The notes beneath the pieces are model-generated. The model ran no database searches. It had not been told where the DNA came from and was given only the letters and a program-made list of their open reading frames with translations. Positions 4,140-20,700 of a stretch of DNA of 36,335 nucleotides are shown piece after piece (the stretch's first letter is position 1; each line of letters begins with the position of its first letter). Origin of the DNA: Planctomycetota bacterium (GTDB lineage Bacteria; Planctomycetota; Planctomycetia; Pirellulales; Pirellulaceae); contig JAPLNL010000123.1 of NCBI GenBank assembly GCA_026692905.1, positions 1 through 36,335 on the forward strand. The letters run 5' to 3'. The position numbers were made by a program, and so were the translations under genes.

Positions 4140-5369
4140 CTAGTGTCCTACTCTGCCCAAGAAAACAGCCTTGGCCGTTTTCAGGATCAGAACAAAATCT
4201 CCAATGATGGTTCGATTATCGGCATAATTCAAGTCCAAACGCATCCACTCCGAGAAGGAGATCTTGCTTGACTTGGAAATTTGCCAAGTGCAAGTCAAAC
4301 CCGGCTTGGTATCAAGCCGTCTTCTTTGCCACCATTCGCATTTTGCAGCTTCATCGCACGGCAGTGGTCGTGGACCAACTAAAGCCATCTGCCCAATCAA
4401 AACGTTCCACAATTGCGGCAACTCATCGAGTCCCGTCTTTCGAAGCAATCCACCGATTCTCGTAACTCTTGGATCGTTCTCAAGCTTAAATGCGGGGCCA
4501 TCCCGTTCATTCAAAACTTCCAAGTTCTCTTTCAGCTGTTCTGCATCGACCACCATGGTTCGCAATTTGTACATTGGGAATGCACTGCCGAATTGCCCCG
4601 AACGCATTTGCCTAAAAAAGACAGGCCCTTTCGATGTCAACTTAATGGCGATGGCAGCAAGCAAAATAACCGGTAACGCAAGCATGAGGCCAATCGAAGC
4701 GCCCAAAAGATCCATGCATCTTTTCCAGCCTGGGTACCTCGGGCAAATGTGCACAGAATGAGCCGTGTCCACAGAAACTTGTTTGCTAACCGCAGATATC
4801 CGACTTTGCGATACGTTGTCTGCTCGCACGATCCGTTTCATGGTCAACGGTGCCAATGATCCACGAGTGGAAAATGGTTCACTCTCGACTGAGGTATCTT
4901 GAACGCTTGATCGATGTTCTTCGTCAAATTCGAATTCGGAATCTGATGTGTTGTCAGAGTTCTCATCTGCTAGGTACGGCTTTTCGAAACCTGAGTAGGA
5001 AAATATCTGAGTGTCCAGTGAAAGACCGTTCCGGGTTGCTGCAACGAGAATTGAGTTCTGAACGACTTTTGCCCCGTGCAATTCCGTCATGGGCAGCATT
5101 ACCCCTAAACCACCTTTCAGCAGGAAACCGATTTCATCGGTAAGTCGCAATCTTTTATGAAGTATTTTGGCGAGAAGATTGATTTGACTGGCTTTTGATG
5201 CAGTTCCAGTCTGCGTTAGCTCAACAACAATCAGAGAAAAATGAAGGCAATAGCGATCGCAACGCATACGTTCCTTGCAAAGAAGCAACTCCATCGCTCC
5301 TGGGGAATGGAGAAGCGAAGACACCTTCGTCCGTACCTCCATTTTTGAAGTGGTCTTGGAATCAGCCAT
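4140..5369 (-). CDS. Sugar transferase with degenerate GGDEF-like N-terminal domain
   Basis: A 409-residue protein from the ATG at 5369 (an in-frame ATG at 5426 is less likely). The C-terminal 200 residues are a bacterial sugar transferase (polyprenyl-phosphate glycosyl-1-phosphate transferase): KRCMDLLGASIGLMLALPVI with one membrane segment, GPVFFRQMRSG, YKLRTM, DELPQLWNVL, MALVGPRPLP and KPGLTCTWQI. Such enzymes start lipid-linked exopolysaccharide or O-antigen synthesis. The N-terminal 130 residues resemble a GGDEF domain (HFSLIVVEL, RLRLTDEIG, GGLGVMLPMTELHGA), but the GGDEF signature has become LLKGGLGV, so cyclase activity is not expected. An acidic, low-complexity linker joins the parts. 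No other glycan genes are adjacent. Confidence 0.87.
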   Translation of the reverse strand: MADSKTTSKMEVRTKVSSLLHSPGAMELLLCKERMRCDRYCLHFSLIVVELTQTGTASKASQINLLAKILHKRLRLTDEIGFLLKGGLGVMLPMTELHGAKVVQNSILVAATRNGLSLDTQIFSYSGFEKPYLADENSDNTSDSEFEFDEEHRSSVQDTSVESEPFSTRGSLAPLTMKRIVRADNVSQSRISAVSKQVSVDTAHSVHICPRYPGWKRCMDLLGASIGLMLALPVILLAAIAIKLTSKGPVFFRQMRSGQFGSAFPMYKLRTMVVDAEQLKENLEVLNERDGPAFKLENDPRVTRIGGLLRKTGLDELPQLWNVLIGQMALVGPRPLPCDEAAKCEWWQRRRLDTKPGLTCTWQISKSSKISFSEWMRLDLNYADNRTIIGDFVLILKTAKAVFLGRVGH

Positions 5370-5736
5370 GATTAATCCTGTTGCAAATCTTGTGCTCCGT
5401 GAAGATATTCGACTCGACAAATCCACTTCGTTGAGTTGTTCTCATGGGGCAGGGTAAGTCCGCAAACTTCCCTATGACTTATCATCGCTACGCCATTCCA
5501 ATTTACGAGGTGCATTCATAACAAAAACATAAAAATCCCAAGAAATAAGGGGTAATCTCGGTTAACATCGCTTTGTTGAAAAAATAACCATCGGGAGCAA
5601 GAGCCCTCAAAGCCAAACCAAGGTAGTGAGGTTTTTTTGGGGTGCTATTTAAGGCTTGATGGTGGCCCGGATAGCACAAAAACGAAATCCGGGGGGCAGT
5701 ATTTCCTTGTTTATCATTCCGCTTCGAAACACGAAC
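5370..5736. other. Intergenic region upstream of the sugar transferase
   Basis: No convincing gene is seen. The part near 5370-5560 should hold the minus-strand promoter of the sugar transferase, but no clear -35/-10 pair could be picked out. The part near 5665-5693 has the hairpin listed separately as a possible end of the kinase transcript. Confidence 0.5.
5666..5693 (-). terminator. Hairpin downstream of the kinase gene
   Basis: CCCGGAT at 5666-5672 pairs perfectly with ATCCGGG at 5687-5693 around a 14-base loop. It lies about 44 bases after the kinase stop codon. There is no run of T after it on the minus strand, so intrinsic termination is uncertain. Confidence 0.35.
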
Positions 5737-8145
5737 TCAGTGCTCAGCATCCAAAGTTGCTTCGTTCGCGGTACCCGTCATCTCAGTACCACTACTCCCC
5801 CTCGATCGCATTGCAGATGCAAAGCTGTCCGGCAATCGCATAACCCAGAGCACAACCACCCAAAGAACACTCACCACCGTCAAAAGCACGAAAAGCGCGA
5901 AAATCCCCTCGCGTATAAGACTAGAAACCATGGATTGCACTGGAGCCGTAATTGAATCCGCGCGCTCTTGAACCAAAACCCATAAATCCGTCGATTGTTT
6001 TCTTTCCCTAGAATCCGAACCCCTTCGAGAAATGTCCACCCGCTGCATGGCCGCAATCCACTTTCCACCGTATTCCTTGCCTTGAGGATCCATCGAGACG
6101 GGATCTACATATTGAAGCGTTCCAACATCTTGCAATGTCTTCAACATCTTTGCATCAATCTGATACTGCGTCACTTCCTGACGAGACGTTTTCGAAAAAA
6201 TAGGATGCTGCAAAATGGTTCCAGCGCGGGTAGCCGCCCCCTCGCTGGCTCCTACATGCCCGTCAACCAAGACTGCGAATCTATTTTTATGTCCAGCGTT
6301 TTCGTTGTCGTCGTGAGGATCTTTTTCGTCGTCTTCCGAAAGAAGCTCGAAGTCGCCGATATTGATGGTCAGAACCAGCAACCCCTCAATGACTTGTTCA
6401 TCCTCCGCACCTTTTGGTTCGCTTGATTTTTTGGCGTCAGAGTCACCCTTTGGTTCGCTCTCTTTTTTATCGCTTTCAGTTGGGGCGGCCGCGGGCTTTT
6501 CATCGTCTTCAGGCGGTACCGGACGCGAGATGGAAATGGGTGTTGATACCGCTATTTTGTTGCGATTGGTGGTCTTGGATTTAAAAGGGACACTCACCTG
6601 CGAAGAAGTCGTTCTCGGAATATTTTTGACAGGAGTCTTTTCATCGAGATCAAGCGACTGTCCAGAAAAATAACTTCGAAACGCGACATTCGAACCAATT
6701 GGATTGGAGACACGATCGGAAGTAAATGACCCTGCTAGAATCGTTCCAAATCGATCTGTCACAAACATGCTGTCAAACCTCGCGGGCTTTTGCGAACTGC
6801 CGATATGCAATTTGATCTCGGAAAGTCGCTCTTCGAGGTATTGCTCAAGTTTGATGCGGCTTGCAAACCCCCCAAGCATAGCTCGACCTTGGCTATCCGC
6901 GGGTGCTCGATCCTTTGCCAAATTGCCCAAGAAATCTTCTGTCGCTTCGTCCACACAGGCCAAAAACCGATCTTCGAGATCAGATCGCCTCGCATCCTCT
7001 TCGATCAATTTAAAGAGGGATGCCATTTCCGATTCTAGAGTTCTTGCGGCGAACTTGGCCGCGAACAAGTTGCTTTGTAAAACCGACTCGCGCAACTGTT
7101 CCGACGCACCTTCCTTGGCTACAAACACTCCACGCCATGCAAACAATCCCATCACTGCCAACAATAAAATTGGCCCGACAATTCCCAAAAGCATCAGCGG
7201 TCTACGCAACCGAGCCATTTGCCGGCGTTCTATCGCAGCCAAAACCTGTTGAACGTTGGCAAAACGATCTTCAGGTTTCTTTGCAATACAACGATCCACA
7301 ATCGCCAGCAACCATCGGTCCATCCCGCGAACACGATGATGCGCCCGAGGGAAGTGGCTCTTGAAAATGGTATCGCGGTATCGTTTCAATCTCTCAGGCA
7401 AACTAGCCGCTGTATCCAAAGTCGAAACCGTATCCGGCGTTTTGTAAGGTGGACTGCCGACAATCATGCAGTAAAAGATCGCGCCCAATGCATACACGTC
7501 CCACCGAGCATCGGGCAACGCATTCAAATCGGCTTGCTCAGGTGCCATATAAAATAACGTACCCAACGACGGCGTCTGTTCATTCGATAGCCGACTCTGA
7601 CCGAAGTCCGCCAATTTTGGCAGCCAATCGTGATCCAAAAGCACGTTCGCAGGTTTTAAATCGCAATGCAAAACCCCTTTGCCGTGCGAATGATTTAGGC
7701 CCATCGCAATATCGGAAAACAACTCAATCGCTTTGGAAGGCGGCATCGCTCCGCGCGCGCGAATCAAATCGTCTAGTGAGCCATTCTCCAAATACTCCAT
7801 TACATAATAAGGCGGCTCTGCATCCCAGCCGACTTCGAGAACTTGAACAATAAAACGATTGCCAGCCATGCTGACCAAGTTCTTGACTTCTCGCGTCAGC
7901 GATGACCAATTGACTCCAGAACGATGAAGATAGAACTTGATCGCAACGGTACGTCCCGTATTGAGATTGTTCCCCACCCAAACTTGACCGAATGCTCCCT
8001 GACCCAAGAGTCGATCCAATCGGTATCCGGGAACTTGAGCAGGCGGCGTCGTCGCGCGCAGACTAAGCTCTTCGGCACGCATTTGCTCGCCGACTGTTTG
8101 ATTCAGTGTGTTTTCGATTGGGTTCGGATCAGAAACGAGAGTCAA
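5737..8145 (-). CDS. Transmembrane Ser/Thr protein kinase with Cache-like sensor
   Basis: A protein of up to 802 residues. The start is TTG at 8145 or ATG at 8082 (residue 22). The kinase domain spans about residues 41-310: glycine loop GQGAFG (48-53), VAIK Lys70, Glu86, catalytic HCDLKPAN (160-167), DFG (180-182) and APE (201-203). A membrane segment at about 317-340 leads to an extracytoplasmic region with MFVTDRFGTILAGS and GSNVAFRSYFSG, which resembles a dCache ligand-sensing domain. A charged low-complexity stretch (about 560-600) interrupts it, and a second membrane segment lies near 740-768. The HCD rather than HRD marks a non-RD kinase. Likely role: sensing an outside signal and phosphorylating cytoplasmic proteins; ligand and targets are unknown. 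Confidence 0.9.
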   Translation of the reverse strand: MTLVSDPNPIENTLNQTVGEQMRAEELSLRATTPPAQVPGYRLDRLLGQGAFGQVWVGNNLNTGRTVAIKFYLHRSGVNWSSLTREVKNLVSMAGNRFIVQVLEVGWDAEPPYYVMEYLENGSLDDLIRARGAMPPSKAIELFSDIAMGLNHSHGKGVLHCDLKPANVLLDHDWLPKLADFGQSRLSNEQTPSLGTLFYMAPEQADLNALPDARWDVYALGAIFYCMIVGSPPYKTPDTVSTLDTAASLPERLKRYRDTIFKSHFPRAHHRVRGMDRWLLAIVDRCIAKKPEDRFANVQQVLAAIERRQMARLRRPLMLLGIVGPILLLAVMGLFAWRGVFVAKEGASEQLRESVLQSNLFAAKFAARTLESEMASLFKLIEEDARRSDLEDRFLACVDEATEDFLGNLAKDRAPADSQGRAMLGGFASRIKLEQYLEERLSEIKLHIGSSQKPARFDSMFVTDRFGTILAGSFTSDRVSNPIGSNVAFRSYFSGQSLDLDEKTPVKNIPRTTSSQVSVPFKSKTTNRNKIAVSTPISISRPVPPEDDEKPAAAPTESDKKESEPKGDSDAKKSSEPKGAEDEQVIEGLLVLTINIGDFELLSEDDEKDPHDDNENAGHKNRFAVLVDGHVGASEGAATRAGTILQHPIFSKTSRQEVTQYQIDAKMLKTLQDVGTLQYVDPVSMDPQGKEYGGKWIAAMQRVDISRRGSDSRERKQSTDLWVLVQERADSITAPVQSMVSSLIREGIFALFVLLTVVSVLWVVVLWVMRLPDSFASAMRSRGSSGTEMTGTANEATLDAEH

Positions 8146-8444: not shown

Positions 8445-9440
8445 CTAACTGTGAATCAAAACGGGAGCGGGTGTGCTCTTCGCAAGCGATTCAATGATTT
8501 GAATGGTGTCCACTCCGTCTCCGATCGCTCGGTGGTTGACGATGATTCGATGCCGTAATACCGGAATCGCAACCGACATCAAATCCTCTAGGATCGGTGC
8601 TGTTCGCCCCTCCAGCAATGCCCTGGCTTTGGCTGCCAAAACTAGATTCTGGCTTCCTCGAGGCCCCGCGCCAAACGCCACATAGTTATCTACCATTTTA
8701 TTCCCCGAACCAGGCCGTGTACCTGAGCACAAGGATACAGCAAAGTCCGCGATGTGGTCCGGGACCGGTACACTTCGAACCGCCATTCGCAGCTCCAAAA
8801 ACGCCTCCCGCGTTAATTTGCTATCGACCCCAGCGGCTTCAATGCCTGTCGTCTTCATCACGATCTCTTTTTCTTGAGCATGCGTCGGATACCCTACATG
8901 AATCTCCATCATGAATCGGTCGAGCTGAGCCTCGGGCAAAGGATACGTCCCCTCCTGCTCAATTGGGTTTTGCGTCGCTACCACTAAAAACGGCTCTTCT
9001 AATTGGTACGACTCCCCTCCTACCGTTACATGCCTCTCCGCCATCGCCTCGAGCAGGGCACTCTGCGTTTTCGGAGCCGCTCGGTTGATTTCGTCCGCCA
9101 AGATCAAATTTGCAAAAATGGGACCTTTGCGAAACTGCATCTGCATTTCATTCGACTGACCATCGCGCCCCAACAACTCATAGCCCGTTATGTCGCTGGG
9201 CATCAAGTCTGGCGTAAACTGAATGCGAGAAAACTTCCAGTGAAACGCGCTAGCCAAACTCTTGACCATCAACGTCTTGGCAAGCCCAGGCGCTCCCACC
9301 AACAATGCATGCGAGCCCGACAAAGCACAAACAAGCAACTGATCCAAAACCAAATCCTGTCCGACGATTGATTGGCTAAGTATCTTTCGAAGATGAGGAA
9401 TCTGGGCAACGAACGCTTCAGCTGACGAGACGGTATTCAA
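8445..9440 (-). CDS. MoxR-family AAA+ ATPase
   Basis: A 331-residue ATPase. Walker A is GAPGLAKT (49-56), Walker B LILADE (112-117), with the MoxR-typical INRAAPKTQSALLEAMAE, sensor 1 VATQNP (154-159) and EGTYPLPEAQLDRF. A C-terminal lid domain contains GAGPRGSQ. MoxR proteins act as chaperone-like ATPases, usually with VWA and DUF58 partner proteins encoded next to them. No such partner lies in this window. The predicted start is a TTG at 9440 with a weak purine-rich stretch (GGAAAG) upstream; no in-frame ATG gives the full N terminus. The kinase gene follows on the same strand after a 299-base gap containing a repeat. Confidence 0.92.
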   Translation of the reverse strand: MNTVSSAEAFVAQIPHLRKILSQSIVGQDLVLDQLLVCALSGSHALLVGAPGLAKTLMVKSLASAFHWKFSRIQFTPDLMPSDITGYELLGRDGQSNEMQMQFRKGPIFANLILADEINRAAPKTQSALLEAMAERHVTVGGESYQLEEPFLVVATQNPIEQEGTYPLPEAQLDRFMMEIHVGYPTHAQEKEIVMKTTGIEAAGVDSKLTREAFLELRMAVRSVPVPDHIADFAVSLCSGTRPGSGNKMVDNYVAFGAGPRGSQNLVLAAKARALLEGRTAPILEDLMSVAIPVLRHRIIVNHRAIGDGVDTIQIIESLAKSTPAPVLIHS

Positions 9441-9652: not shown

Positions 9653-9712
9653 GGCGTAGACAGCTCGGCAGGAGCCTCGCTCTCCCGTTGAAATTGCAAG
9701 CAATTTCAAAAA
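9653..9712. repeat. Repeat family 1, copy D (half element) overlapping the fur stop
   Basis: Contains TCGGCAGGAGCCTCG (9665-9679), CTCTCCC and the near-palindrome GAAATTGCAAGCAATTTC (9690-9707). The last part is the inverted match of the left arm of copy C at 34107-34130. The Fur-family stop codon at 9706-9708 lies inside this repeat. The sequence before it (9643-9664) matches the complement of 31133-31160. Confidence 0.72.
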
Positions 9713-10152
9713 GATGATGGCTCGCAGGTCAAGCAATGTCCTTTGACCAAAATCTCACTAATGCGAGCTATGTTCAGTGATTTCTTCATGCTGTCGTCTG
9801 GAAGCCCGATCCCATCCATGCAGGAAACGGTGCCGCATTCCACACAAACGAAATGAGGATGGCTACTTCGATCATGCGATGGATCGCGGATCTCAAACCG
9901 CCAAACATGGTCCCCCAACTCAGTTCGACTCACTAATTCCGCATCGGTCAGATCACTAAGATTTCGGAAGACCGTCGCTTTGTCAAAACCGATCGGTACC
10001 AGTTTGTCTGATAGTTCCGCATGAGTTTGAGGCTTGCTACCTCTTCGCAATGCAATCAGCACCGAAATGCGCGCAGGAGTGCTCCTCAGCCCAGCCGATC
10101 TCAAGATCTCCCGGACCTTTTCGATCTCGTCGGTATCCTTTTTGTTGCTCAT
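9706..10152 (-). CDS. Fur-family metal or peroxide regulator
   Basis: A 148-residue Fur superfamily repressor. The N-terminal winged helix contains LRSTPARISVLIALRR and DKATVFRNLSDLTDAELV (recognition helix TVFRNL). The C-terminal dimerisation domain has HPHFVCVECG (C103, C106) and GHCLTC (C140, C143), the structural Cys4 zinc site. Whether it is Fur, PerR or Zur cannot be settled by eye. It starts 29 bases after the receiver-like gene on the same strand and probably belongs to the same transcript. Its last two codons and stop overlap a dispersed repeat, so the C-terminal end may have been set by an insertion. Confidence 0.9.
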   Translation of the reverse strand: MSNKKDTDEIEKVREILRSAGLRSTPARISVLIALRRGSKPQTHAELSDKLVPIGFDKATVFRNLSDLTDAELVSRTELGDHVWRFEIRDPSHDRSSHPHFVCVECGTVSCMDGIGLPDDSMKKSLNIARISEILVKGHCLTCEPSSF

Positions 10153-10181: not shown

Positions 10182-10565
10182 CTAAACAGCTTTTGGGTCG
10201 AGGAATCGCGATAAGCGTTCGTGGGTCGACGGTTGGGCATACTCCAACTTTCCAAATCCGTATTCCGCCCCTTCCGCCACTGCGGCCCGCTGTTGTTCCG
10301 GATAGTTTGTAATAATCATAACAGGAATCGACTTGGTGGCGTTATCTTGCTTAAGATGCCGAAGGATTTCAATGCCATCGCTGTAGTCGATGTCCAGCTT
10401 TCGATTGATGACAATCAAGTCTACCTTTTGCTTTCCTAACAACTCGTTTGCGTCGCTAAGTTGGTGGGCTCGCAGTACCGCAACGTCGTATTTGCTCGCC
10501 AGCATTCGTTGCATTGATGCATGATCGGGATCGCAATTACCAATATCCAAAACTGTTTTGGTCAT
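10182..10565 (-). CDS. Stand-alone receiver-like protein lacking the phospho-acceptor Asp
   Basis: A 127-residue protein with the CheY-like fold pattern: an acidic pocket near the N terminus (D12), strand VDLIVIN, SDGIEILRHLK, PVMIITN with the conserved Thr (T86), and GKLEY with the conserved Lys (K106). At the place of the phosphorylated Asp there is Asn54 (codon AAT), so ordinary phosphotransfer is unlikely. No output domain is fused. The start codon overlaps the stop of the large secreted-protein gene by four bases (ATGA), the fourth link of a coupled set. It is probably a protein-interaction module; the partner is unknown. Confidence 0.82.
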   Translation of the reverse strand: MTKTVLDIGNCDPDHASMQRMLASKYDVAVLRAHQLSDANELLGKQKVDLIVINRKLDIDYSDGIEILRHLKQDNATKSIPVMIITNYPEQQRAAVAEGAEYGFGKLEYAQPSTHERLSRFLDPKAV

Positions 10566-12733
10566 TTTGAGTTTATGATTTCGGTTTCTAGTGTTCGAAC
10601 CAACGTGTCTTGGAGATACTTTTGCATCAGCTGACGTGTTACGTCAAGCATCGATTCGATTCGTTTGACAACACCACTGAGCAGTGAACCTTTTTCCGTG
10701 GACAGAGCCCTGCGCTGAATACTTTCGACCTGTTCGGACATTTTTTCGAACGATTTGACTCGCTTGAGTTCATCCAACAACTTTTCTGCCTTGACGAGAT
10801 CTTTCTTAGCAATTTCCTGCTTGATTCGCGACTCCAACACTTTTCTTCGAATCACAATATCCAAAACTTCTGACTGCATTCCTTTAAGAAGTCCTTCGGT
10901 TTCCAATCGACGCCTGTCATCAGGCAAGTCCGCTTGCTCTATGGATTTCATTCCGTTAACAATCGGCAGTCGAGCCAACAATGTGCTACCGTTTTTGACG
11001 TAGTACAAATAAAGCGGCACGTTGATCTGGATAAACCCTCTTGCTCTCTTGGTGACCTCCGGGGCCTTTGGACTTTCGGCTTTCTTGGGTGGCTCATCGT
11101 TTTCGTCGTCTCCAGAATTTTTGCTGGGTTCCTTTACGGCAGCCAGCGAATCCGCACTGGCTGTACTCGCTGCATTGGCTGCTACTGGGTCATCAACCAG
11201 CTCGTACTCGGGGGGAGCTACTGGTTCAGGTGCTAGTTTGCGAGCGTTGCTGATCGCTTGTGTTTTGCTCTCGCCAGGAGGGTCGTATTGAATGGTTGGA
11301 AGGTCTGAAACTCCAATCGTCAAGACACCGCGCCAGTCGGTTCTTCCAACCATTTCGAGGTCTTCACTGCCCGGAGTTCGGCGGTAAATTTCAGCGCCGA
11401 CAAAAGAACTGTCCGGCACACGCTGCATTCCAAGCTTAATATTGGTTTCTGGATGAGTTGGACTTACCTTCAATCCGACTCGCTGCGTCCGCCGATTCTT
11501 GGCAGTAGAGAGAGCGCCTCGACTCGCAGTGAATATTGCCCCGTAAAGCCTCGACACACTATCAATCTTTTCCGTGATTGCAATAAACGTAAAAGGAATT
11601 GTTTGAAGGACTGTCGGGTTCCCATTGGGATCGTCTCTGCGAATAATCGGCAGCAAAACATCGCCAGGCAAAACTCGAATGGGATGGTCCTCTTTCGTCA
11701 ACAATCCGGTGGCTTTGACTCGTAACACAGCTGTCTTAAAATCCGTTTCCTCAATACGAACGATCGGCGAGAATGCGACCTTTGCCAACTCCGCAACCGT
11801 TCTCGCGATGTCTTGCTTGCAAACGACATCTGCGGCAGCGATTTCCCCCATCCTCCGCACAAAGGAATCCAACTCCTTGACCTGGATTCGAATCGACTCC
11901 CCAACTTTGTCGACCGACGCCAGGAATATCTTGTCATTGTCTCGCAACAGCGCCTCGGGCTGCCAAGGTAATCTGGTTGGAAGAGTCCGAGCTACCTTTT
12001 TGAATTTTTCGAGATCCTGTTTCTGTACCAGTGCCCCAATGATCTTGCCCGATGCAAGCTGGTTTTGCAGTTCTTCATTCGTGCCTTGAAAGGGTTTCAC
12101 AATCTCCTTGAAATCCACCCACTGCTTCTTGTCTAAAAATGGCACTATGTCTCGTTTCATACCCGCATATTGCAGAGGCTGAATCGCAATGTGCTTGATC
12201 TTTTGGATCGCGGCCTCCAGCGTGCGAACGCTTTGCAAACTGGCCGCTCTTGCCTCAAGATCCGCCATGTTTTCGATCTCTTCTTTGGTCCGTTTTTTCT
12301 TCGGCGCTTTTGGGTCTTCGGGAGGTTTCGGTGGTGGCGGATTCATAATCAAAAACTCCGCCTTCGCTTCGTCCGATTTACCTACCACCAAAATCAATTC
12401 TCTCGCAAGCAATTGATCAGCCGTTAAGTCATCCAAGCGATAAAGTACCGAACCGAACAGAGCATCCGGCGTTGATTCGACTTGAATCGCCCATGTCGGC
12501 CCAAAGTTGAGCTCGGCATATTCGGAAATCTGCCGATGGATTTCCCGCTCAGACTCGTCACTCAAGGATAACGTAGGCGATACGCTCACCCAAACTTTAA
12601 CTCGATAGGGAGAATACTCCCAAACTTCTTGTGCATGGGCACTTAATTCCAAACACAAAAGTACAACGCTCGAAAGCAAAACGGCCAAGCTAAAACTTGC
12701 AATCGATGTTTTCAACCCCACCAATCGACTCAT
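10562..12733 (-). CDS. Large secreted protein of unknown function
   Basis: A 723-residue protein that I do not recognise. A signal peptide (hydrophobic residues about 11-33, cleavage near AHAQ-EV) points to export. Visible parts are an N-terminal region beginning YSPYRVKVWVSVSPTL, a Pro/Lys-rich insert (PPPPKPPEDPKAPKKK), a long central region, a second low-complexity stretch (about 500-560), and a Lys/Glu-rich helical C-terminal 130 residues likely to form coiled coil. The gene overlaps both neighbours by four bases (ATGA), so its product is probably made in step with the substrate-binding protein and the pseudo-receiver. A structural or regulatory envelope role is a guess. Confidence 0.85.
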   Translation of the reverse strand: MSRLVGLKTSIASFSLAVLLSSVVLLCLELSAHAQEVWEYSPYRVKVWVSVSPTLSLSDESEREIHRQISEYAELNFGPTWAIQVESTPDALFGSVLYRLDDLTADQLLARELILVVGKSDEAKAEFLIMNPPPPKPPEDPKAPKKKRTKEEIENMADLEARAASLQSVRTLEAAIQKIKHIAIQPLQYAGMKRDIVPFLDKKQWVDFKEIVKPFQGTNEELQNQLASGKIIGALVQKQDLEKFKKVARTLPTRLPWQPEALLRDNDKIFLASVDKVGESIRIQVKELDSFVRRMGEIAAADVVCKQDIARTVAELAKVAFSPIVRIEETDFKTAVLRVKATGLLTKEDHPIRVLPGDVLLPIIRRDDPNGNPTVLQTIPFTFIAITEKIDSVSRLYGAIFTASRGALSTAKNRRTQRVGLKVSPTHPETNIKLGMQRVPDSSFVGAEIYRRTPGSEDLEMVGRTDWRGVLTIGVSDLPTIQYDPPGESKTQAISNARKLAPEPVAPPEYELVDDPVAANAASTASADSLAAVKEPSKNSGDDENDEPPKKAESPKAPEVTKRARGFIQINVPLYLYYVKNGSTLLARLPIVNGMKSIEQADLPDDRRRLETEGLLKGMQSEVLDIVIRRKVLESRIKQEIAKKDLVKAEKLLDELKRVKSFEKMSEQVESIQRRALSTEKGSLLSGVVKRIESMLDVTRQLMQKYLQDTLVRTLETEIINSK

Positions 12734-15060
12734 CGCGCTTGATACCTCCAGTTCTTGATATCCTGGTACAAGGCAGTCGGCTTCTTTGTTACCCCAACCG
12801 CTTCTCGTCGATAAGCAAACGTTTCACTAACTTGCCAAAGAGGCAATATCGGCAGATGAGATGCTACTAAGGTATGCAGATCTTGACACCCCTCTCGAAC
12901 CTCGCGCCAGTTGCGAGCCACACTCAGTTTTCCTAAAGCTTGAACAATAAACTGGTTGCTTGATTCCGCCGCACCTCCAATACCGAATAGCCGCTCCGCA
13001 TCGGTTGCTGGTTCCCAAATCGCAGCGGAAACATAAAGGAAGTCCAATCCCGCCCTTTCCTTGGGGCCAGGCATCTTGTCCAAAACTACCAACTCCGCTG
13101 GAACCTCGATCAATTTCCAAGCTTGAACAATTGCCTCACCCGCAATTTTTGCCGATTCGTAGTCAGGGACACCCAGTCGAATCGTCGGGATGGGCGCGAG
13201 TACTTCGCGCTTCTTGTCCGCTTGGCTCTTCAGTTTTGCCTTCGTCAGCATCATCAGCACCTTGGCCAGTTTGGGATCATAGGCGAAATTCTCGACACTC
13301 TTGTTGTATGCATACGACAGCGGATCCGCATCCGTTGCACCAAACGGAAAAGGACCGCTGATCACTCGACTCACGCCAGGATCGGAATTCCCCAATATCT
13401 CGCCATTCAAAATGCCTTCACGATTGATGGCATAGAGCAACGCACGTCTAAACTCAGGATCGTCCAGGTACGCATTCTTTCCAGTTGGGATCAGCATATG
13501 AACGATGGGTAACGCATACTGGTCGATGACCACCTCCGTTGCCGTCCGAAGCTTTGTCGCATCTGCTGGGAAAAGACGATCGATCATTTCGACATCTCCT
13601 CGCTTTAAGTCCGTAATCGCTTTTTCCGGGTCCGAATACAGGATTTCCTGAATCTCCTTTGGTTGATAGTCTGCCGGTGGGTTTAGTCCCGCCCATTCAA
13701 ATCGCTTTACTCCGGCCTCGTTACTCTTCAGCCGGTATAGCGTTTTCGATCCTAATGGGTTGCTATCTTTCGGCATTTCCCATTGCAAATATGCTTGTGG
13801 CAAAACGTGTGGTCGTCTCAGTTTCAGCTTCACTTTTTCCGGACCAAAAACGGCAACGGTATCCACAATCGCGGCCCAACTCGGAGAATACTTTGGGCTG
13901 CCGATTGTCGCGCGATCCAAAAACGCTTGCGACATGGTTAGGCTGTCTGGCACTCCATCTTTGCCAGGATTCTGTATTAGTAGATCCAACTCCGTTCGAT
14001 CATCGTTGACCTGGTAGGAACCACCAAAGCGAAACGCGTACATGCCCCCCTCAGGGCCTGTCTTCGTAAATTCGAACAGCGGATTCGATATCAGTTTGCC
14101 TATTCGGCACGAAGGCCAGTCGGCCAACGCAGCCGAATCGGGCTTGTCCGATGACTGAAAAACAGCAACGCGAATCATCGGATATGCCAAAATCAATTCA
14201 TTCAAGAATTGCTTTCCACCCTCAATGTCGGGCTCGATCGCGAGCATCCGTAACGCCGCCTTTCTTGCCTTGGCAAAATCACCAGCGTCTCGCTCTCGGA
14301 TCGCATCCTCACGGTGGGTCATGGCCAACTCCAAGAACTTCCCTCGCCATTCCGTTACGACCGGCAAAGGATCCTTCGGGTAGTCCTTTTCAAGTCGCAG
14401 GATCATTGCTCTCGCCGTTCCATAATCCTTCGCGTCAAAATAGGCCTTGATGAGCTTGCTCGATACGGATGATATCGCCTTGCGAATACTTTCTTTTTCC
14501 TTGTCCTCCGGAAATGTTCTTTGGAATTCTTCAAGCACCCCTAAAGCATGGGGCAATTGCTGTTGGGATGCCATCTCGAGAGCACTTCGATACAAGAAGT
14601 CACGGCGCAGCTTTGAGAGCCCTGCGGTTTGCGGATAATTCTTACTCAAAAAATCAAGATGCTCGAAAGCTTCGCCAAATTTCTTTTGGCCAAGTAGATT
14701 GTTGGCTTGTTGCAAAACAAGGTCTTCGTAGAGAGTTATCTTTTCGATATCCCGCCAAGCGATTTCGTAAATACGATCCGGAAAAAGCGGAAACGTCACA
14801 CGGAAAACATCCGTCTCCTTCGGCGATTCGGGGAGCTTTCTGTTCGGAAACTCAATAGGATTTACTTTGACGCTGCGTCCTTCCTCCGCCTTCTTCAAGG
14901 TGATGATATCGAAGGGAGCTTTTTCGTCCAAAACGGAACCGACAACCCCGATTTCGGCCAACAGTTTTTCCTGCTGGCCGAACGCAGTCGGTTCCAAGAA
15001 ATCAAAAAGGCACAAAAGAGTCAATGCCAGCAGGCAAACACCGTGTCGAAAAATCATCAT
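12730..15060 (-). CDS. TPR plus family 5 extracellular solute-binding protein
   Basis: A 776-residue exported protein with an N-terminal signal peptide (LLALTLLCLFDFL, cleavage near AFGQ). Residues about 108-275 are TPR-like helices (FGEAFEHLDFLSKNYPQT, DYGTARAMILRLEKDYPKD). From about 290 onward it resembles the peptide/nickel-type substrate-binding proteins of ABC transporters (SBP family 5), with the typical DDPEFRRALLYAINREGIL, and ILPLWQVSETFAYR near the end. No permease or ATPase genes adjoin, so it is an orphan, and may bind a ligand for signalling or scaffolding rather than import. It overlaps the genes on both sides by ATGA. Confidence 0.85.
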   Translation of the reverse strand: MMIFRHGVCLLALTLLCLFDFLEPTAFGQQEKLLAEIGVVGSVLDEKAPFDIITLKKAEEGRSVKVNPIEFPNRKLPESPKETDVFRVTFPLFPDRIYEIAWRDIEKITLYEDLVLQQANNLLGQKKFGEAFEHLDFLSKNYPQTAGLSKLRRDFLYRSALEMASQQQLPHALGVLEEFQRTFPEDKEKESIRKAISSVSSKLIKAYFDAKDYGTARAMILRLEKDYPKDPLPVVTEWRGKFLELAMTHREDAIRERDAGDFAKARKAALRMLAIEPDIEGGKQFLNELILAYPMIRVAVFQSSDKPDSAALADWPSCRIGKLISNPLFEFTKTGPEGGMYAFRFGGSYQVNDDRTELDLLIQNPGKDGVPDSLTMSQAFLDRATIGSPKYSPSWAAIVDTVAVFGPEKVKLKLRRPHVLPQAYLQWEMPKDSNPLGSKTLYRLKSNEAGVKRFEWAGLNPPADYQPKEIQEILYSDPEKAITDLKRGDVEMIDRLFPADATKLRTATEVVIDQYALPIVHMLIPTGKNAYLDDPEFRRALLYAINREGILNGEILGNSDPGVSRVISGPFPFGATDADPLSYAYNKSVENFAYDPKLAKVLMMLTKAKLKSQADKKREVLAPIPTIRLGVPDYESAKIAGEAIVQAWKLIEVPAELVVLDKMPGPKERAGLDFLYVSAAIWEPATDAERLFGIGGAAESSNQFIVQALGKLSVARNWREVREGCQDLHTLVASHLPILPLWQVSETFAYRREAVGVTKKPTALYQDIKNWRYQAR

Positions 15061-18000
15061 CGACTCTCACCTGAGTTTTCCGAACCGGCAGTGAGCAACG
15101 GGACCTGCACGACGATTCCTTCGTCGCATGGAATCAACATGGCTTTGGGAAGAATCAACGGAGCCCCACTAATGGGCTCGCCAATTTGCACCCTGGCAAC
15201 CATGTTTCCATCGGACAAAGACACGCGGATCAATTCACCGCTTGTCGAAGCAACAATACAGTCCGACTCAATCAGACTAGGCGTGCCAACGAGAACAATT
15301 TTTTCCAGTGGCTTCGACCAAAGCAGCTTGCCCGTTTCGTCGCAAGCAACCAAGCCGTCAATGTCACTTAACGCCAACAAGTAGCCTTTCGAATCGCTCT
15401 CGACGGCATAGGGGCCCCATACAAAGCGGCCTTCGACTGGCACCGATGTAAATCGCTTCAACTCACTCGAATCATAGAAATCCAATTGGTCCCCTGCAAC
15501 ACCCGCCGAAACACCAACAATCACGTCCTTGACGATCGACAATCGCCCCTTCAACTGTTTTTCCAAAGGTTGCGAGGTGATGCTGCGCAACTGCTTGCCT
15601 GTACCAAGCTTGTACATGAATCGTTGCTGGTCGGCCACAATCGCTGTTTGCTTGTCCGCCAAAACGGTGGGGTTCAGCCATTTGGGGCGCTCGCCCGCTT
15701 GCACAATCGGCTGAAAAGGTAAACCGACCACCTGCCCTTTGTCCGGATCGACCATGGCTATTTGGCCATTCGTCAAGGGGACCAGAATGGTCCCATTGCC
15801 CAGCGCAATGGGTTCACTCGCCGGAAAAGCATCCGCGAAATCTAGCGTGAGCATTTTTGTTGGAGTGCTCGATCGGCGGCTTGGCTCAATGACTAACAAC
15901 TGGTTCCCAAACGCCTGATTCATCATCACGATGGAGGAATCGGGTCTCCTGATTGGCTCAATAAACATCATCGAACGCTGGCTTCGTCCAAGATTCTGCA
16001 CTTGACCAACAGGTTGTTTGCTTTGGAATGCTGCGGACTCGATCGAAAACGCAGCACCCTGGGCTGTGATAGCCAGAAAACCCTTACCGTCCGTTGAAAG
16101 AGAAGTGACCGGAGCTCCAAGGTCAGATTCCCAAACGATTTCGCCCGTTCCTATCTTAATCGCCGTTGCACGCACGCCACGATTGCCGCGAACCACTCTT
16201 GTATGGATTGCCATATCATCCACGCTGATTGGTCTAGACGTAAATTGATCGAGATCGTAGTTGGACCATTGCTGATTTAGTTTCTGAGAGCTCTCTTGTA
16301 TCTGATAGAGAGCAAGCCGAGTTGAGGCAACCAACAAATTGTTTTCCACCATCAGTGGCCATGCCAACTTGGGAGTTTCCTGTTTTTCAAGCGAATTCAC
16401 CTGCTTGAAGACTTTGTCTTTTTTGTTAAGAGCGTCTACCTCCAAAATGGCGATCTCGCCAAGGTTCGTCAGGACCGCAATCCGCCGTCGGTCGACCTGA
16501 GGCGCGATCACTACATGCCCTTTGAACCGAATCGGTTTTTGACCAACTTGCACATCGAGCCCCTCGTCATTGGTTTGGAAAACTCGCATCAAACTGTAGT
16601 CCGATCCTTCGTTTTCAAACAAAATCAACTGATTTTGAATCCAAATGGGAGGTACTGCAATTGAGGATGGTGCATGACCGATGTATTCCACTTCTTCACA
16701 CTTCCCGCTTGTTCGCGAAAGAACATAGAGATTGGAGTGATTGCCCAAAACGTATCGCTTTTTCTTGCCTGCAGCACCACCGGGCCCAACATCGATAGGT
16801 TGTGGAAATTTCTTGCCCCATCTCGCTTGACCTGTGGCCACGTCCAAACAAAACACCTCGCCTGGAGTCGTTTCGCCGGCCGCCGTTTTGCCACCCGCAA
16901 TCGATACGAAAATATCATCACCATCCATTGCAGGCTCGATAATTCGCCCAGTAAACTTGGCTTCCCAAACGACAGCTCCATCGACGGAGGCAATCCGCTG
17001 AATTTTTCCTTGCTCGGGAATCGAAATCAAAACATCGCTGTCCGATGTCGACATTAACGGCTTGGGCTCACCCGTCCAGTCAGTACCGATATGCTTGCGC
17101 CAAAGAACTTGACCGGTCGCTGCATTTAACGCGTAAACGGCTCCTTTGGCCCGCACAACAACGGTTGCGCCTGTGGTCTCGGGGATGTTTTTGCGACCAA
17201 CAAGCACGACACTTTTGGAGGGATTTCCAGGATCCTGTTCGCTACCCACGGTCGGTGTCTGCGAGGAGGTGCCCACCAACTCTTGCTGCTGACCTGTTGC
17301 CTGCGCGAGCAGTTCATTGAGTTTGATGTCTGTCTCCAACTGAGGGTACTTGCGAAGAATTTTTCGCCTCAAATCGTAAGTCTCTGCAACGTTCTTCGCT
17401 TCCACCGACTTGGTCATTTCAGCGATTGTCACAATGAGATCCTCACCCTTTTGGATATCGCGAACCAAACGGCTTTGATTTTCTTCTATCGTCTTGATCC
17501 GAAGCTCGTTCTGGGTTCTTTCTAAAGTACCCACGTATCTTGGATCTCGAACCAAGTCCATATGCTGGTTCATCTTGTCGATCAACGTTTTCCGATCTGG
17601 AATCGATTGTGTGTTCTCAATTTTCATGACGAACTTTTCTGCGATTCTCAACAACGTATCCGTAACGTCACCGCGGAATTGGGTCATCGCCGTTTCATTG
17701 GTAATGGCGGGCAAATGCTCGAGACAAGCCTTCGATCCAATTGTCGGATCCACCGCTTTTTCAGACTCTTGCCTAACTTTCGACAATGCAGAAAACACCC
17801 GAGCTTCACTCGCGTGCTCATTCGTAGGGAAACGCCCCGCAAACTCCGAAAAACTCTTGCTCGCTCGTTCGTAGTCCTGAGACTTATAAGCGTTTTCAGC
17901 TTGTTCAAAAGCGTCAACGGCCGACCCGTTCCAAAACCAGGTGATCAAGGGCACAAAGAAAACAAGCAAAAGAAGGACGAGGAAGCCGTAGCCAATAATG

Positions 18001-18488
18001 CGAAAGGACTCCCAGGAACTCTTCTTTTTGACTTTCGTTTCCCGAACGATGCGGATCGGACCATCATCCAATTCCGCGACCACACGTCGTCCCCGAACCG
18101 GTTTGGCATTCTCTACGATCTGTACCTCTTCCACGCCATCCTCGATCACCTCCACCGATTCGACGGAGTCTTCTGCCTCAACAAACTCGTCGGGCAAAAG
18201 ATCATCAACGGAATCATGATCGTTTACCGGCTCGGGTTCCAATGGGCGTCCACCCCGGAGCGCTTTCGATGGATCAGGCCTTTCACTTCCTAAGGATTCG
18301 TTTAACTCGGTCACCAGCTTGGTGGCCTGAAATCGAGTTAGCTGGCCATTGTCCACAAGCAATTTAGCAATGGCTTCTGGCGTTACACGAACCTTAGATT
18401 GCTCAACTTGTCGGTGGAGCTCGACAATGATTTCGGGGTCAAGTAGACCGCGACTCTCCAACAGTGCTATAAACTGCGATGCTGCCAT
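15057..18488 (-). CDS. Membrane-anchored PQQ-type beta-propeller protein
   Basis: An 1143-residue protein, first of the coupled set. Residues 1-67 form a helical domain (LLVDNGQLTRFQATKLV) of a kind also seen near the N terminus of planctomycete kinases. An acidic linker (about 85-145) leads to one membrane segment at 163-186. Outside lie TPR-like helices (ENAYKSQDYERASKSFSEFA, about 198-217) and, from about 430 to 1120, PQQ-like repeats such as GAVYALNAATGQVLWRKHIG and GKIQRIASVDGAVVWEAKF. Such propellers bind proteins or, in dehydrogenases, PQQ; no dehydrogenase residues are evident, so binding or scaffolding is more likely. Its TGA stop overlaps the ATG of the next gene. Confidence 0.87.
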   Translation of the reverse strand: MAASQFIALLESRGLLDPEIIVELHRQVEQSKVRVTPEAIAKLLVDNGQLTRFQATKLVTELNESLGSERPDPSKALRGGRPLEPEPVNDHDSVDDLLPDEFVEAEDSVESVEVIEDGVEEVQIVENAKPVRGRRVVAELDDGPIRIVRETKVKKKSSWESFRIIGYGFLVLLLLVFFVPLITWFWNGSAVDAFEQAENAYKSQDYERASKSFSEFAGRFPTNEHASEARVFSALSKVRQESEKAVDPTIGSKACLEHLPAITNETAMTQFRGDVTDTLLRIAEKFVMKIENTQSIPDRKTLIDKMNQHMDLVRDPRYVGTLERTQNELRIKTIEENQSRLVRDIQKGEDLIVTIAEMTKSVEAKNVAETYDLRRKILRKYPQLETDIKLNELLAQATGQQQELVGTSSQTPTVGSEQDPGNPSKSVVLVGRKNIPETTGATVVVRAKGAVYALNAATGQVLWRKHIGTDWTGEPKPLMSTSDSDVLISIPEQGKIQRIASVDGAVVWEAKFTGRIIEPAMDGDDIFVSIAGGKTAAGETTPGEVFCLDVATGQARWGKKFPQPIDVGPGGAAGKKKRYVLGNHSNLYVLSRTSGKCEEVEYIGHAPSSIAVPPIWIQNQLILFENEGSDYSLMRVFQTNDEGLDVQVGQKPIRFKGHVVIAPQVDRRRIAVLTNLGEIAILEVDALNKKDKVFKQVNSLEKQETPKLAWPLMVENNLLVASTRLALYQIQESSQKLNQQWSNYDLDQFTSRPISVDDMAIHTRVVRGNRGVRATAIKIGTGEIVWESDLGAPVTSLSTDGKGFLAITAQGAAFSIESAAFQSKQPVGQVQNLGRSQRSMMFIEPIRRPDSSIVMMNQAFGNQLLVIEPSRRSSTPTKMLTLDFADAFPASEPIALGNGTILVPLTNGQIAMVDPDKGQVVGLPFQPIVQAGERPKWLNPTVLADKQTAIVADQQRFMYKLGTGKQLRSITSQPLEKQLKGRLSIVKDVIVGVSAGVAGDQLDFYDSSELKRFTSVPVEGRFVWGPYAVESDSKGYLLALSDIDGLVACDETGKLLWSKPLEKIVLVGTPSLIESDCIVASTSGELIRVSLSDGNMVARVQIGEPISGAPLILPKAMLIPCDEGIVVQVPLLTAGSENSGESR

Positions 18489-18798
18489 CGATTAATTAAA
18501 CCTCTCGACCACGGACACTTGAATACCATTGAAGATTTGTTCTCTTGGACGCCATGATGAACGCGAAAAAGATGCGAAGCGAAAAAACAATGTCGTTCAT
18601 CGGCGCGAAATCCAAGGGGCAGAAAAGAAAAGCCTTAGTAGTGCGATGCCAGAAAAGTTAGCATCGTAAGGAGGAGCCTACTCTTTCGCCCTATGATAGC
18701 CAAAGCTTTGCCGTTTGAGCATTCCCTACCTGGATATTTCATAAGAGATTGATCCTTTCAATAGGTGTCCGGCTTTCTGCTTCGGTGCGTTCCCTCCG
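18489..18798. other. Intergenic region upstream of the coupled operon
   Basis: No gene is supported. It should hold the minus-strand promoter for the five-gene set, but no clear -35/-10 pair was found. CGATGC (18644-18649) and GCATCG (18661-18666) form a 6 bp hairpin that might end the speA transcript. A GGAGG-like stretch at 18670-18675 on the plus strand is not followed by a credible reading frame. Confidence 0.45.
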
Positions 18799-20700
18799 CT
18801 ACTCCAAATAAGTCGTCCAATGCGCCGCACTGGCATATTGTTGGATTAGTTTGTCTCCATTTTCCTTTGGACAGCTTCCGGATTCAACCGCTGCTCGGAT
18901 TCTCTTATTAAAGGCTTCCTGCAGATGGGGCACGTCGAAACGTGCAAAAGTCACCATTTCTTGAATGCGGCTACCTGGCACGATCTTCGAAACGTGAAAA
19001 CGACCGTCCGACTCCATGAAGATCTGCGCCTCATTCGGTAACCCGAAAAGGTTGTGCCCAGAGCCCATCACTTCTTGATAAGCCCCCAGCAGAAAAAGAC
19101 CAATGTAGTAGTCCTCGTTTTCTCGCCATTCGGGCAATTCCAACGTCTCCTTGACATCCTTGAGATCGACGAATTTGTCGATCTTCCCATCCGAATCGCA
19201 AGTTACGTCTACCAATGTTGCAAAGTCCACCTTGGATTCCTGTAACCGATGCAGAGGAATAACAGGAAACAACTGGCCGATGGCCCACGAGTCAGGGGCT
19301 GATCGAAACAAGGAGAAGTTGCAAAGATACTTCGCAGCCAAAACGCGTTTGACGTCCTCGAACTCCTCATTCGGCGACCGGGAAAGCTCTGACTCTCGCA
19401 ACGCCCTGGCGCATACCTCCCAATACAAGACCTCACCCTTGGCACGATCCTCAAGCGAGATCAGGCCTAAATTGAACTGCGTGTGCAACTCGTCCTTGAG
19501 CTCGACCGCGTCGTGATAATACTCAAAATAGTTTTTGCCATTGAGCTCATCGCATAGTCCTTTGAGTTCGGTGATTACCTGCGGATCATCCTCGTCGATC
19601 AAAACCACCGGTTGGTCGTCTGCAAACGTTTCGATTTCCTCCCGAATCGAAACGACTAGTACCGTGTGGTACGCGGTCATCATTCGACCACTTTCCGTGA
19701 CCAAATTCGGATGCGGTACGTTCTCTTCATCGCACACGGTTTTGACCGTATAGACCACATCGTTCGCAAACTCTTGCACCGTGTAATTCATCGACGACTC
19801 AAACCGGGTTTTGGAACCATCGTAATCAACACCCAATCCACCTCCGATATCCAAGAAGTCAACGGGTAATCCTTGCTGATGAATTTTGGAATAAACCCTG
19901 GCTGCCTCCTTCATCGCATTCTTGACCCGCTTGATGTCCGTGATTTGGGAGCCGATGTGAAAATGGAGCAATTTCAAGTACTGTTCTTTTTTGTTCTCTC
20001 GCAACAATCGAACACACTGAATAATCTCCGAAGTCGTCAATCCGAACTTGGCTGAATCGCCACCGGAACTCGCCCATTTGCCCGATCCCCGAGTGTAAAG
20101 CTTGGCTCGCAACCCAATCCACGGGCAAACACCCGTTTCGTTAGCTACCCGCAACAGCATTTTCAGTTCGTTCAGCTTTTCCACAACAATCACGACCCGC
20201 TTTCCAGACTGGAGAGCCAGTGAAGCCAGTCGACAAAATGCCTCGTCTTTGAATCCATTGCAAATCAGCAATGACTCGGACGTTTGCTCTTGAGCAACCG
20301 CGGCATACAGTTCCGCCTTCGAACCGCATTCCAAGCCAACACGACAGCGATCGCTTTCCTTTAGAAACTCTTCGATGACTTCGCGTCTTGGATTCACTTT
20401 CATTGGAAAGACAGGATAGTGCTTGCCGCTGTAGTCAAACTGGTCCATCGCATGTTTGTATGCCCCAGTCAAAATGCGTAATTGATTGGTTAGGATCTGA
20501 GGAAATCGAAGAAGAATAGGGAGCTGAAGCTTCTTGTCCTTAACTAAGTGATCGACCAGGTCCTTTAAGTCAACATTTCGAGCGTCCTGCGCGCTCGGCC
20601 TAGCAATAATGTTGCCTTCATTGTTGACATCGAAGTAGCCCGCAGACCAATTTTCGATTCCGTACGTCGAGTGAATACGTTGAATCGTTTCTTCGTTCAT
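18799..20700 (-). CDS. speA: Biosynthetic arginine decarboxylase SpeA
   Basis: A 633-residue PLP enzyme that makes agmatine from arginine, the first step of a polyamine route. The PLP lysine lies in VFPMKVNP (K101). Other family signatures are LLHFHIGSQI, DFLDIGGGLGVDYDGS, TESGRMMTAYHTVLV, and VTCDSDGKIDKFV, which holds the active-site Cys. The length matches biosynthetic SpeA (about 630-660). No agmatinase or agmatine deiminase gene is nearby, so the rest of the pathway lies elsewhere. It is followed downstream by a 310-base gap and is probably its own transcription unit. Confidence 0.96.
   Translation of the reverse strand: MNEETIQRIHSTYGIENWSAGYFDVNNEGNIIARPSAQDARNVDLKDLVDHLVKDKKLQLPILLRFPQILTNQLRILTGAYKHAMDQFDYSGKHYPVFPMKVNPRREVIEEFLKESDRCRVGLECGSKAELYAAVAQEQTSESLLICNGFKDEAFCRLASLALQSGKRVVIVVEKLNELKMLLRVANETGVCPWIGLRAKLYTRGSGKWASSGGDSAKFGLTTSEIIQCVRLLRENKKEQYLKLLHFHIGSQITDIKRVKNAMKEAARVYSKIHQQGLPVDFLDIGGGLGVDYDGSKTRFESSMNYTVQEFANDVVYTVKTVCDEENVPHPNLVTESGRMMTAYHTVLVVSIREEIETFADDQPVVLIDEDDPQVITELKGLCDELNGKNYFEYYHDAVELKDELHTQFNLGLISLEDRAKGEVLYWEVCARALRESELSRSPNEEFEDVKRVLAAKYLCNFSLFRSAPDSWAIGQLFPVIPLHRLQESKVDFATLVDVTCDSDGKIDKFVDLKDVKETLELPEWRENEDYYIGLFLLGAYQEVMGSGHNLFGLPNEAQIFMESDGRFHVSKIVPGSRIQEMVTFARFDVPHLQEAFNKRIRAAVESGSCPKENGDKLIQQYASAAHWTTYLE

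Follow-up and report, generated by a model that had tools for sequence, protein, structure and literature searches.

A conserved propeller, solute-binding and secreted protein trio in planctomycetes, probably one half of an envelope machine of the Tol/Exb/Agl kind

The window analyzed here is a stretch of 36,335 nucleotides from a planctomycete of the family Pirellulaceae (contig JAPLNL010000123.1, positions 1 to 36,335). On its minus strand lie genes for a PQQ propeller protein (prop), a solute-binding protein (SBP) with tetratricopeptide repeats (TPR) and a secreted-looking protein (sec), followed by genes for a pseudo-receiver and a Fur-family regulator. A first-pass annotation of the sequence had described four overlapping open reading frames (ORFs) joined by three 4-base overlaps, with the Fur gene 29 bases further on, and these coordinates were borne out. 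The features are as follows.

15057-18488, minus strand: prop, 1143 residues, a bitopic PQQ propeller protein.
12730-15060, minus strand: SBP, 776 residues, a secreted-looking TPR and family 5 solute-binding protein, orphan.
10562-12733, minus strand: sec, 723 residues, secreted-looking, without a Pfam or NCBIfam family and without a PDB match.
15057-15060, minus strand: ATGA overlap of prop and SBP, 4 bases, from ORF coordinates.
12730-12733, minus strand: ATGA overlap of SBP and sec, 4 bases, from ORF coordinates.
10562-10565, minus strand: ATGA overlap of sec and the receiver, 4 bases, from ORF coordinates.
18489-18541, minus strand: decayed 3ʹ end of a second exbD, immediately before prop, from local DNA alignment to relatives.
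10182-10565, minus strand: pseudo-receiver, 127 residues, Asn54 at the acceptor position; a lineage-specific neighbour, not core.
9706-10152, minus strand: Fur-family regulator, 29 bases past the receiver; a lineage-specific neighbour, not core.
18799-20700: arginine decarboxylase gene, in the place expected for a motor, from Pfam/NCBIfam scans.

Domain and hydropathy scans agreed with the initial description of the four products as a membrane-anchored propeller protein, a TPR and family 5 SBP, a secreted protein without a family and a receiver lacking its Asp. In the window prop, the Pfam PQQ_2 propeller (E 1.5e-22) began at about residue 441, and PQQ_2 was present in all 38 members of the prop family (alignment A3). 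A single transmembrane segment was predicted at about 159-191, with a TPR-like region at about 190-240, and the N-terminal domain, covered by no Pfam model, carried an 'LTRFQA' motif. The SBP matched SBP_bac_5 (PF00496; E 1.6e-16, 60.8 bits vs a cut-off of 32.4) and, weakly, TPR. Hydrophobic N-terminal stretches resembling signal peptides were found in SBP and sec and not in the receiver. The receiver matched Response_reg (E 1.2e-08) and the Fur-family ORF matched FUR (E 4.8e-11); read by eye, the receiver had Asn54 in place of the phospho-acceptor Asp and retained Thr86 and Lys106.

To place these genes in context, 98 loci from across the class, chosen because SBP or sec matched, were annotated using profiles of the window proteins and their relatives; their order and family labels were assigned by inference, with g1 denoting the window's genus. 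The genes prop, SBP and sec stood in this order in 86 of the 98 loci: 19/19 in g1, 39/40 in other Pirellulales-like loci, 20/21 in f21, 6/6 in f22, 2/6 in other families and 0/6 in f118. Contig ends account for the one miss each among the Pirellulales-like and f21 loci (L078 and L223), and in L215 the order was kept with about 4 kb separating prop from SBP. The recurrence of this order throughout the class makes the arrangement of the ORFs more than chance, and the gene-order conservation that the first-pass annotation had asked about was found. Downstream of sec, on the opposite strand, a Ser/Thr kinase gene was seen in the Pirellulales-like loci L071, L073, L074, L075, L086, L087, L093, L095, L096, L098, L100, L101 and L103, and several Pirellulales-like loci had, past this kinase gene, what we take to be a Maf-like gene.

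At many loci, three genes on the same strand directly upstream of prop encoded one MotA/TolQ/ExbB protein and two ExbD/TolR proteins (D1 and D2), belonging to PF01618 (E about 2e-22 in both sequences scanned) and, twice, to PF02472. A complete motor lay directly upstream of prop within 4.5 kb in 63 of the 79 trio loci having more than 2 kb of upstream sequence, and two of the remaining 16 (L076 and L079) were cut at the locus edge with both exbD genes visible. The ExbB profile aligned with E. coli TolQ at a probability of 98.5 (E 2e-15, 38% identity over 101 positions). All 68 motor sets, that of the window genome included, had an invariant Asp in the membrane segment of both D1 and D2 and two invariant Thr in ExbB, which we take to be pore or channel residues. 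A motor role was assigned to ExbB-D1-D2 because of the gene families, the channel residues and the genetic linkage. In one genome (G671, L223), the motor lay downstream of sec and grouped with the motor of L092 (FastTree); judged from the tree, this is a re-association of the trio with the motor of another family. Many loci also carried a gene for a squalene-cyclase-like/HEAT protein upstream of ExbB (L086 745-2472, L102 1602-3320, L087 18334-19998), and in f22, whose motor lies away from the trio, such a gene was near the trio in 5 of the 6 loci.

The unit thus differed from the four genes first proposed: its core was the trio, and the ExbB-ExbD-ExbD motor normally found upstream had been overlooked. 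The notion of a four-gene unit stood insofar as there is a conserved set whose products would span membrane and periplasm; it did not stand for the receiver, nor for the Fur gene beside it. In g1, receiver and Fur genes followed sec in all 17 loci with enough sequence, while outside g1 they followed it in 0/39 Pirellulales-like, 0/21 f21, 0/6 f22 and 0/2 other loci (0/68 together); locus annotation at E <= 1e-4 likewise gave no receiver or Fur gene after sec outside g1. The receiver family matched in 76 of 98 class genomes (E <= 0.001, weak matches counted), its gene lay apart from the SBP position in each of the 11 inspected relatives, and the acceptor site was Asn in all 12 copies inspected (the window and the 11 relatives). 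Because it is a separate gene elsewhere and has Asn in every inspected copy, the 'silent' receiver is a newcomer to this place from an old and widespread family, and a role as core subunit was rejected. The original finding is real, but it was framed around the wrong four genes. Beyond the Fur gene, the window contains genes for a MoxR-type ATPase (8445-9440) and for a Ser/Thr kinase (5737-8145), and a close relative (L002) has a different gene past Fur (4743-5714).

Co-occurrence of motor and SBP was then assessed in 148 class genomes at least 90% complete, with thresholds of E <= 1e-60 for the SBP and at least 170 bits for operon-type ExbB (the next lower ExbB match listed scored 142 bits). 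Both were present in 100 genomes and neither in 42; four had the SBP only (G070, G055, G631 and G641) and two the motor only (G506 and G544), so that the motor type occurred in 102 of the 148. The two motor-only genomes carried a divergent SBP within an intact operon (L167 and L168). With weak matches counted (E <= 0.001), the SBP matched in 139 of the 148 genomes, and all nine genomes without a match also lacked the motor type. A single-sequence search found the SBP in 51 of 60 relatives and sec in 110 of 196 genomes of the order; the sec profile matched 41 of 392 phylum genomes, all but one of them within the class, and the outlier (G292) had no trio gene at its locus.

In the window itself, no motor genes stood beside prop, and the exbD remnant was all that was left of them. 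The remnant aligned to the 3ʹ end of the second exbD with scores of 46 (L065) and 41 (L232), compared to a maximum of 31 in 200 single-base shuffles each, and its frame ends in IQVSVVERFN and a stop, vs FQVTVVEEFD and a stop in relatives. A matching remnant (score 41 vs a shuffle maximum of 30) was found in G021, which shares the decarboxylase neighbour with the window. Longer remnants were found in G022 (scores of 80 and 86, with an in-frame stop) and G001 (an ORF of 112 residues, 33 bits), and in G015 the remnant was a rearranged ORF of 228 residues (38 bits) directly before prop (L226 14835-15521). The window genome had ten ExbD matches; among the motor sets in the five surrounding regions compared, the ExbB-D1-D2 set on contig C32 (L114 10554-12614) was by far the nearest to the operon motors. 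Adjoining it is a second ExbB-ExbD-ExbD set in divergent orientation (L114 12801-14717), distant from the operon motors in sequence and followed by a gene of 345 residues.

We searched 27 genus genomes with the ExbB of the C32 set and termed motors close to it type S. Type S motors were found in six genomes (G000, G021, G022, G015, G001 and G004) at 68-100% identity, always on a contig other than that of the SBP; in G004 the ExbB was in two pieces, with 74% and 61% identity. Operon-type ExbB, with 48-52% identity to that of the C32 set, was found in 18 genomes, on the SBP contig in 17 of them. Exactly one strong motor ExbB was thus present in 24 of the 27 genomes and both types together in none, the next-best ExbB in any genome scoring at most 49 bits apart from the split G004 gene. 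Neither type was found in G003, G016 and G026; G026 has the second exbD at its contig end, and the contig of G016 ends inside prop. In the FastTree phylogeny, the five type S sets formed a single clade (support 1.0) lying outside the operon-type motors of the genus, while its hosts fell in at least three places of the prop and SBP tree, G015 standing next to G017, which keeps an intact operon motor. In the five type S hosts readable upstream of prop (G000, G021, G022, G001 and G015), only remnants were seen there. The single clade, the scattered hosts and the remnants together indicate repeated loss of the resident motor in genomes that had an alternative one; type S may have originated by duplication or transfer. 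Read as natural evidence, the repeated replacement suggests that the trio needs a motor of the ExbB-D1-D2 type, and the window's genus amounts to a natural experiment in which the motor was replaced several times and the trio was kept.

The SBP had been called a binding protein with no transporter genes. SBP_bac_5 gave a single match in the whole window genome, and OppC_N (PF12911), the one permease model searched, gave none in 25 genus genomes (the window genome and 24 relatives); of the 40 genomes searched, 10 had OppC_N genes, and these 10 belonged to other families of the order. The matching permease that might have been paired with the SBP elsewhere did not appear among the 25 genus genomes by this model, and an ABC (ATP-binding cassette) importer was rejected. 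The earlier remark that the set matches no known transport or two-component system was supported to the extent that it is no ABC importer and no two-component system. A 40-member SBP profile matched family 5 SBPs of solved structure, most strongly AgaA (E 1.8e-16), over part of its 785 positions (AgaA 349-559, DppA 425-675, NikA 333-672). The putative ligand is probably a peptide or a sugar-like fragment. As for sec, the window protein had no NCBIfam family and one sub-threshold Pfam match (E 0.25), the best PDB match was at E 0.57, and Pfam scans over 41 members gave 20 families, each in a single member. The kinship of sec to TolB, an impression gained from the sequence pattern, was rejected (hhalign vs E. 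coli TolB, probability 0.6).

The cytoplasmic ends of the membrane proteins varied in composition. An FHA domain was found in 21 of 30 prop proteins of the f21/f22-rich set A6 (E <= 0.01) and not in the window's own prop. A kinase domain lay between the LTRFQA-type N-terminus and the transmembrane segment of prop in L093 and L095 (2/38 in A3), and the second ExbD was fused to a kinase domain in L160 and L165 (2/55 in A7), genomes whose prop, by eye, was without an FHA-like start. The second ExbD often had a zinc-ribbon-like start, with Zn_ribbon_4 in 14 of 55 (E <= 0.01). FHA domains bind phosphothreonine, and an LTRFQA motif occurs in planctomycete Ser/Thr kinases. As kinase, FHA and kinase-associated domains swap on the same cytoplasmic face, these sequences suggest that the cytoplasmic ends link the machine to Ser/Thr phosphorylation; the pseudo-receiver fits this theme, yet it is an addition in one genus. 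Before its transmembrane segment, prop has a conserved W159-[DE]-S161 motif. A defence system was rejected, since PADLOC found no match for any protein of the trio, for the receiver or for any of the three motor proteins; kinase-based PADLOC models did match the two kinase fusions, as they may match many such kinases.

From these results we consider it likely that the trio is the conserved half of a trans-envelope complex driven by the proton motive force, with the SBP as receptor and a cytoplasmic signalling end, in the manner of Tol-Pal and AglRQS-Glt. The trio genes would encode the inner-membrane scaffold and the periplasmic part of this complex, which is widespread in the class. The motor would be an ExbB/TolQ ring with D1 and D2, in a stoichiometry presumed from known ExbBD/TolQR. 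With its cytoplasmic N-terminus, one transmembrane segment and periplasmic TPR and propeller, prop may take force or a state from the motor across the membrane, while the TPR-SBP and sec would be secreted partners docked on it. The SBP would bind a ligand with no ABC permease to receive it. Through the swappable ends (on prop an LTRFQA-type, FHA or Ser/Thr kinase domain, on D2 a zinc ribbon or a kinase), the machine may report to Ser/Thr phosphorylation or be switched by it. In the window, the neighbouring motor has decayed, the ExbB-D1-D2 set on the other contig would replace it, and pseudo-receiver and Fur have been appended, in this genus only. Motor coupling of the trio is well supported; the function of the machine is what we infer.

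Several observations weigh against this proposal. In f22, the motor was not beside the trio (6/6 loci), and ExbB scores were lower (171 to 200 bits). Two genomes, G070 and G055, had a strong SBP and no operon-type motor. Both co-occurrence thresholds were set after the scores had been seen, and co-occurrence was phylogenetically clumped: 34 of the 42 genomes with neither component belong to one family, f118, so independent events are few. The six f118 loci (L216-L221) showed only a distant SBP-like gene and three of the four f121 loci read only an SBP-like gene, L213 (f121) having a prop-like gene as well. In G004, a type S host, the contig ends inside prop, and any service of the type S motor to the trio is putative. 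The prop transmembrane segment has no conserved His, unlike the SHLS-type motif of TolA/TonB, which speaks against a simple TolA/TonB analogy. The AlphaFold model of sec, made for two sequences, was unusable (mean predicted local distance difference test score 34).

Other explanations were weighed against the same evidence. The machine could be a functional replacement of Tol-Pal that pulls on or organizes the outer membrane in growth and FtsZ-less division, the SBP being structural or a reader of peptidoglycan fragments. The motor family is the same, the propeller and TPR partners recall TolB/CpoB, the machine is widely distributed, and TolB_N (PF04052) was absent from all 59 class genomes, with 3 of 14 control genomes positive (E. 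coli, Caulobacter and Bacteroides). However, the Pfam matches of the operon genes scanned included no TolA-like or Pal-like protein (no genome search was aimed at either), sec had no TolB match, and the 34 f118 genomes, without the motor type and a strong SBP, imply that the class can live without the machine; we regard this explanation as unlikely. A TonB-like nutrient importer, in which uptake through the outer membrane is energized by the motor and the SBP shuttles or captures ligand in the periplasm, would account for an ExbBD-type motor and an SBP from a transport family. It appears unlikely, given that the genus has no OppC_N permease gene to take the ligand, that TonB_C (PF03544) was absent from the window genome and from 48 of 59 class genomes (present in 11), and that the scanned operon genes had no outer-membrane barrel among their Pfam matches; nor do such importers, to our knowledge, include FHA and kinase domains.

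That the operon is a unit of co-expression only, with motor and trio doing separate jobs, would fit the distant motors of f22 and of the type S genomes, as well as the strong SBP without a motor type in G070 and G055. Against it, and making it quite improbable, stand the mutually exclusive motors of the genus with their replacement, the re-association in G671, the lack of the motor in all nine genomes that had no SBP match, and the kinase domain on D2 in the two genomes with a prop lacking an FHA-like start. The first-pass annotation's own proposal, a dedicated sensor complex of propeller protein, SBP, secreted protein and pseudo-receiver, drew on the gene overlaps and is consistent with the receiver following sec throughout the genus; since it leaves out the motor and includes a receiver that is a separate gene elsewhere and is missing after sec in 68/68 loci outside the genus, we consider it very improbable.

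Going beyond the motor-driven complex preferred here, we raise the tentative possibility that the machine does the Tol-Pal or Ton job in most of the class, reads a ligand through its SBP and connects directly to Ser/Thr phospho-signalling by swappable modules, including the kinase-ExbD fusion. If this is true, the machine could organize envelope growth in those lineages whose division reportedly proceeds without FtsZ. According to PMC10632474, both the envelope and the mode of division of planctomycetes are unusual, and many genes specific to the phylum have no assigned function. A widespread motor operon with an orphan SBP, a nameless secreted family and exchangeable kinase and FHA ends is a concrete, testable candidate for the link between the proton motive force on one side and envelope events and signalling on the other. 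Among papers found by literature searches, titles and the starts of abstracts gave no description of a prop-SBP-sec operon, which does not show its absence from print, and a term search in the main text of the Planctopirus limnophila essentiality paper (PMC10632474) gave no mention of these operon genes. The exbB/exbD genes RB12053/RB12055 of Rhodopirellula baltica, possible counterparts of this motor, are reported to be salt-induced (PMC2754498).

Compared to known systems, the machine shares the SBP sequence family (family 5) with the Opp/Dpp ABC importers and differs from them in the lack of an OppC_N gene in the genus, the fused N-terminal TPR and the motor operon. TonB-ExbB-ExbD shares the motor family, whereas here the bitopic partner is a propeller protein and the window genome has no TonB_C. 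In the force-transducer loci of the Planctomycetes-Verrucomicrobia-Chlamydiae group (PMC12204202, partial text), the transducer is a vWA protein with the SHLS-type His, in contrast to the propeller protein without a conserved transmembrane His here, and SBP and sec go without mention in that part of the paper; the same source gives the SHLS-type motif, with its His in the transmembrane segment, for TolA/TonB. Tol-Pal shares the motor family and, in the E. coli gene order, a propeller and TPR partners in one operon; here there are two distinct TolR/ExbD genes, the propeller is on a transmembrane protein and an SBP is present. The Myxococcus AglR-AglQ-AglS/Glt system has, as described in PMC3169522, one TolQ, two ExbD/TolR, the bitopic cytosolic-FHA protein GltG and secreted TPR proteins. 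Corresponding to these are the one TolQ/ExbB and two ExbD/TolR upstream of the trio in 63 of 79 loci and secreted TPR proteins; FHA on the bitopic protein was seen in 21 of 30 A6 props and not in the window's. Unlike in Glt, where the bitopic protein ends in TonB_C, here it ends in a PQQ propeller, the motor genes stand beside the scaffold genes, an SBP and an unnamed secreted family are included, and no OmpA-like or barrel gene is among the Pfam matches. AglRQS-Glt is the nearest functional likeness, and the system belongs to the Tol/Exb/Agl kind as a variant, seen in the window's lineage after motor exchange.

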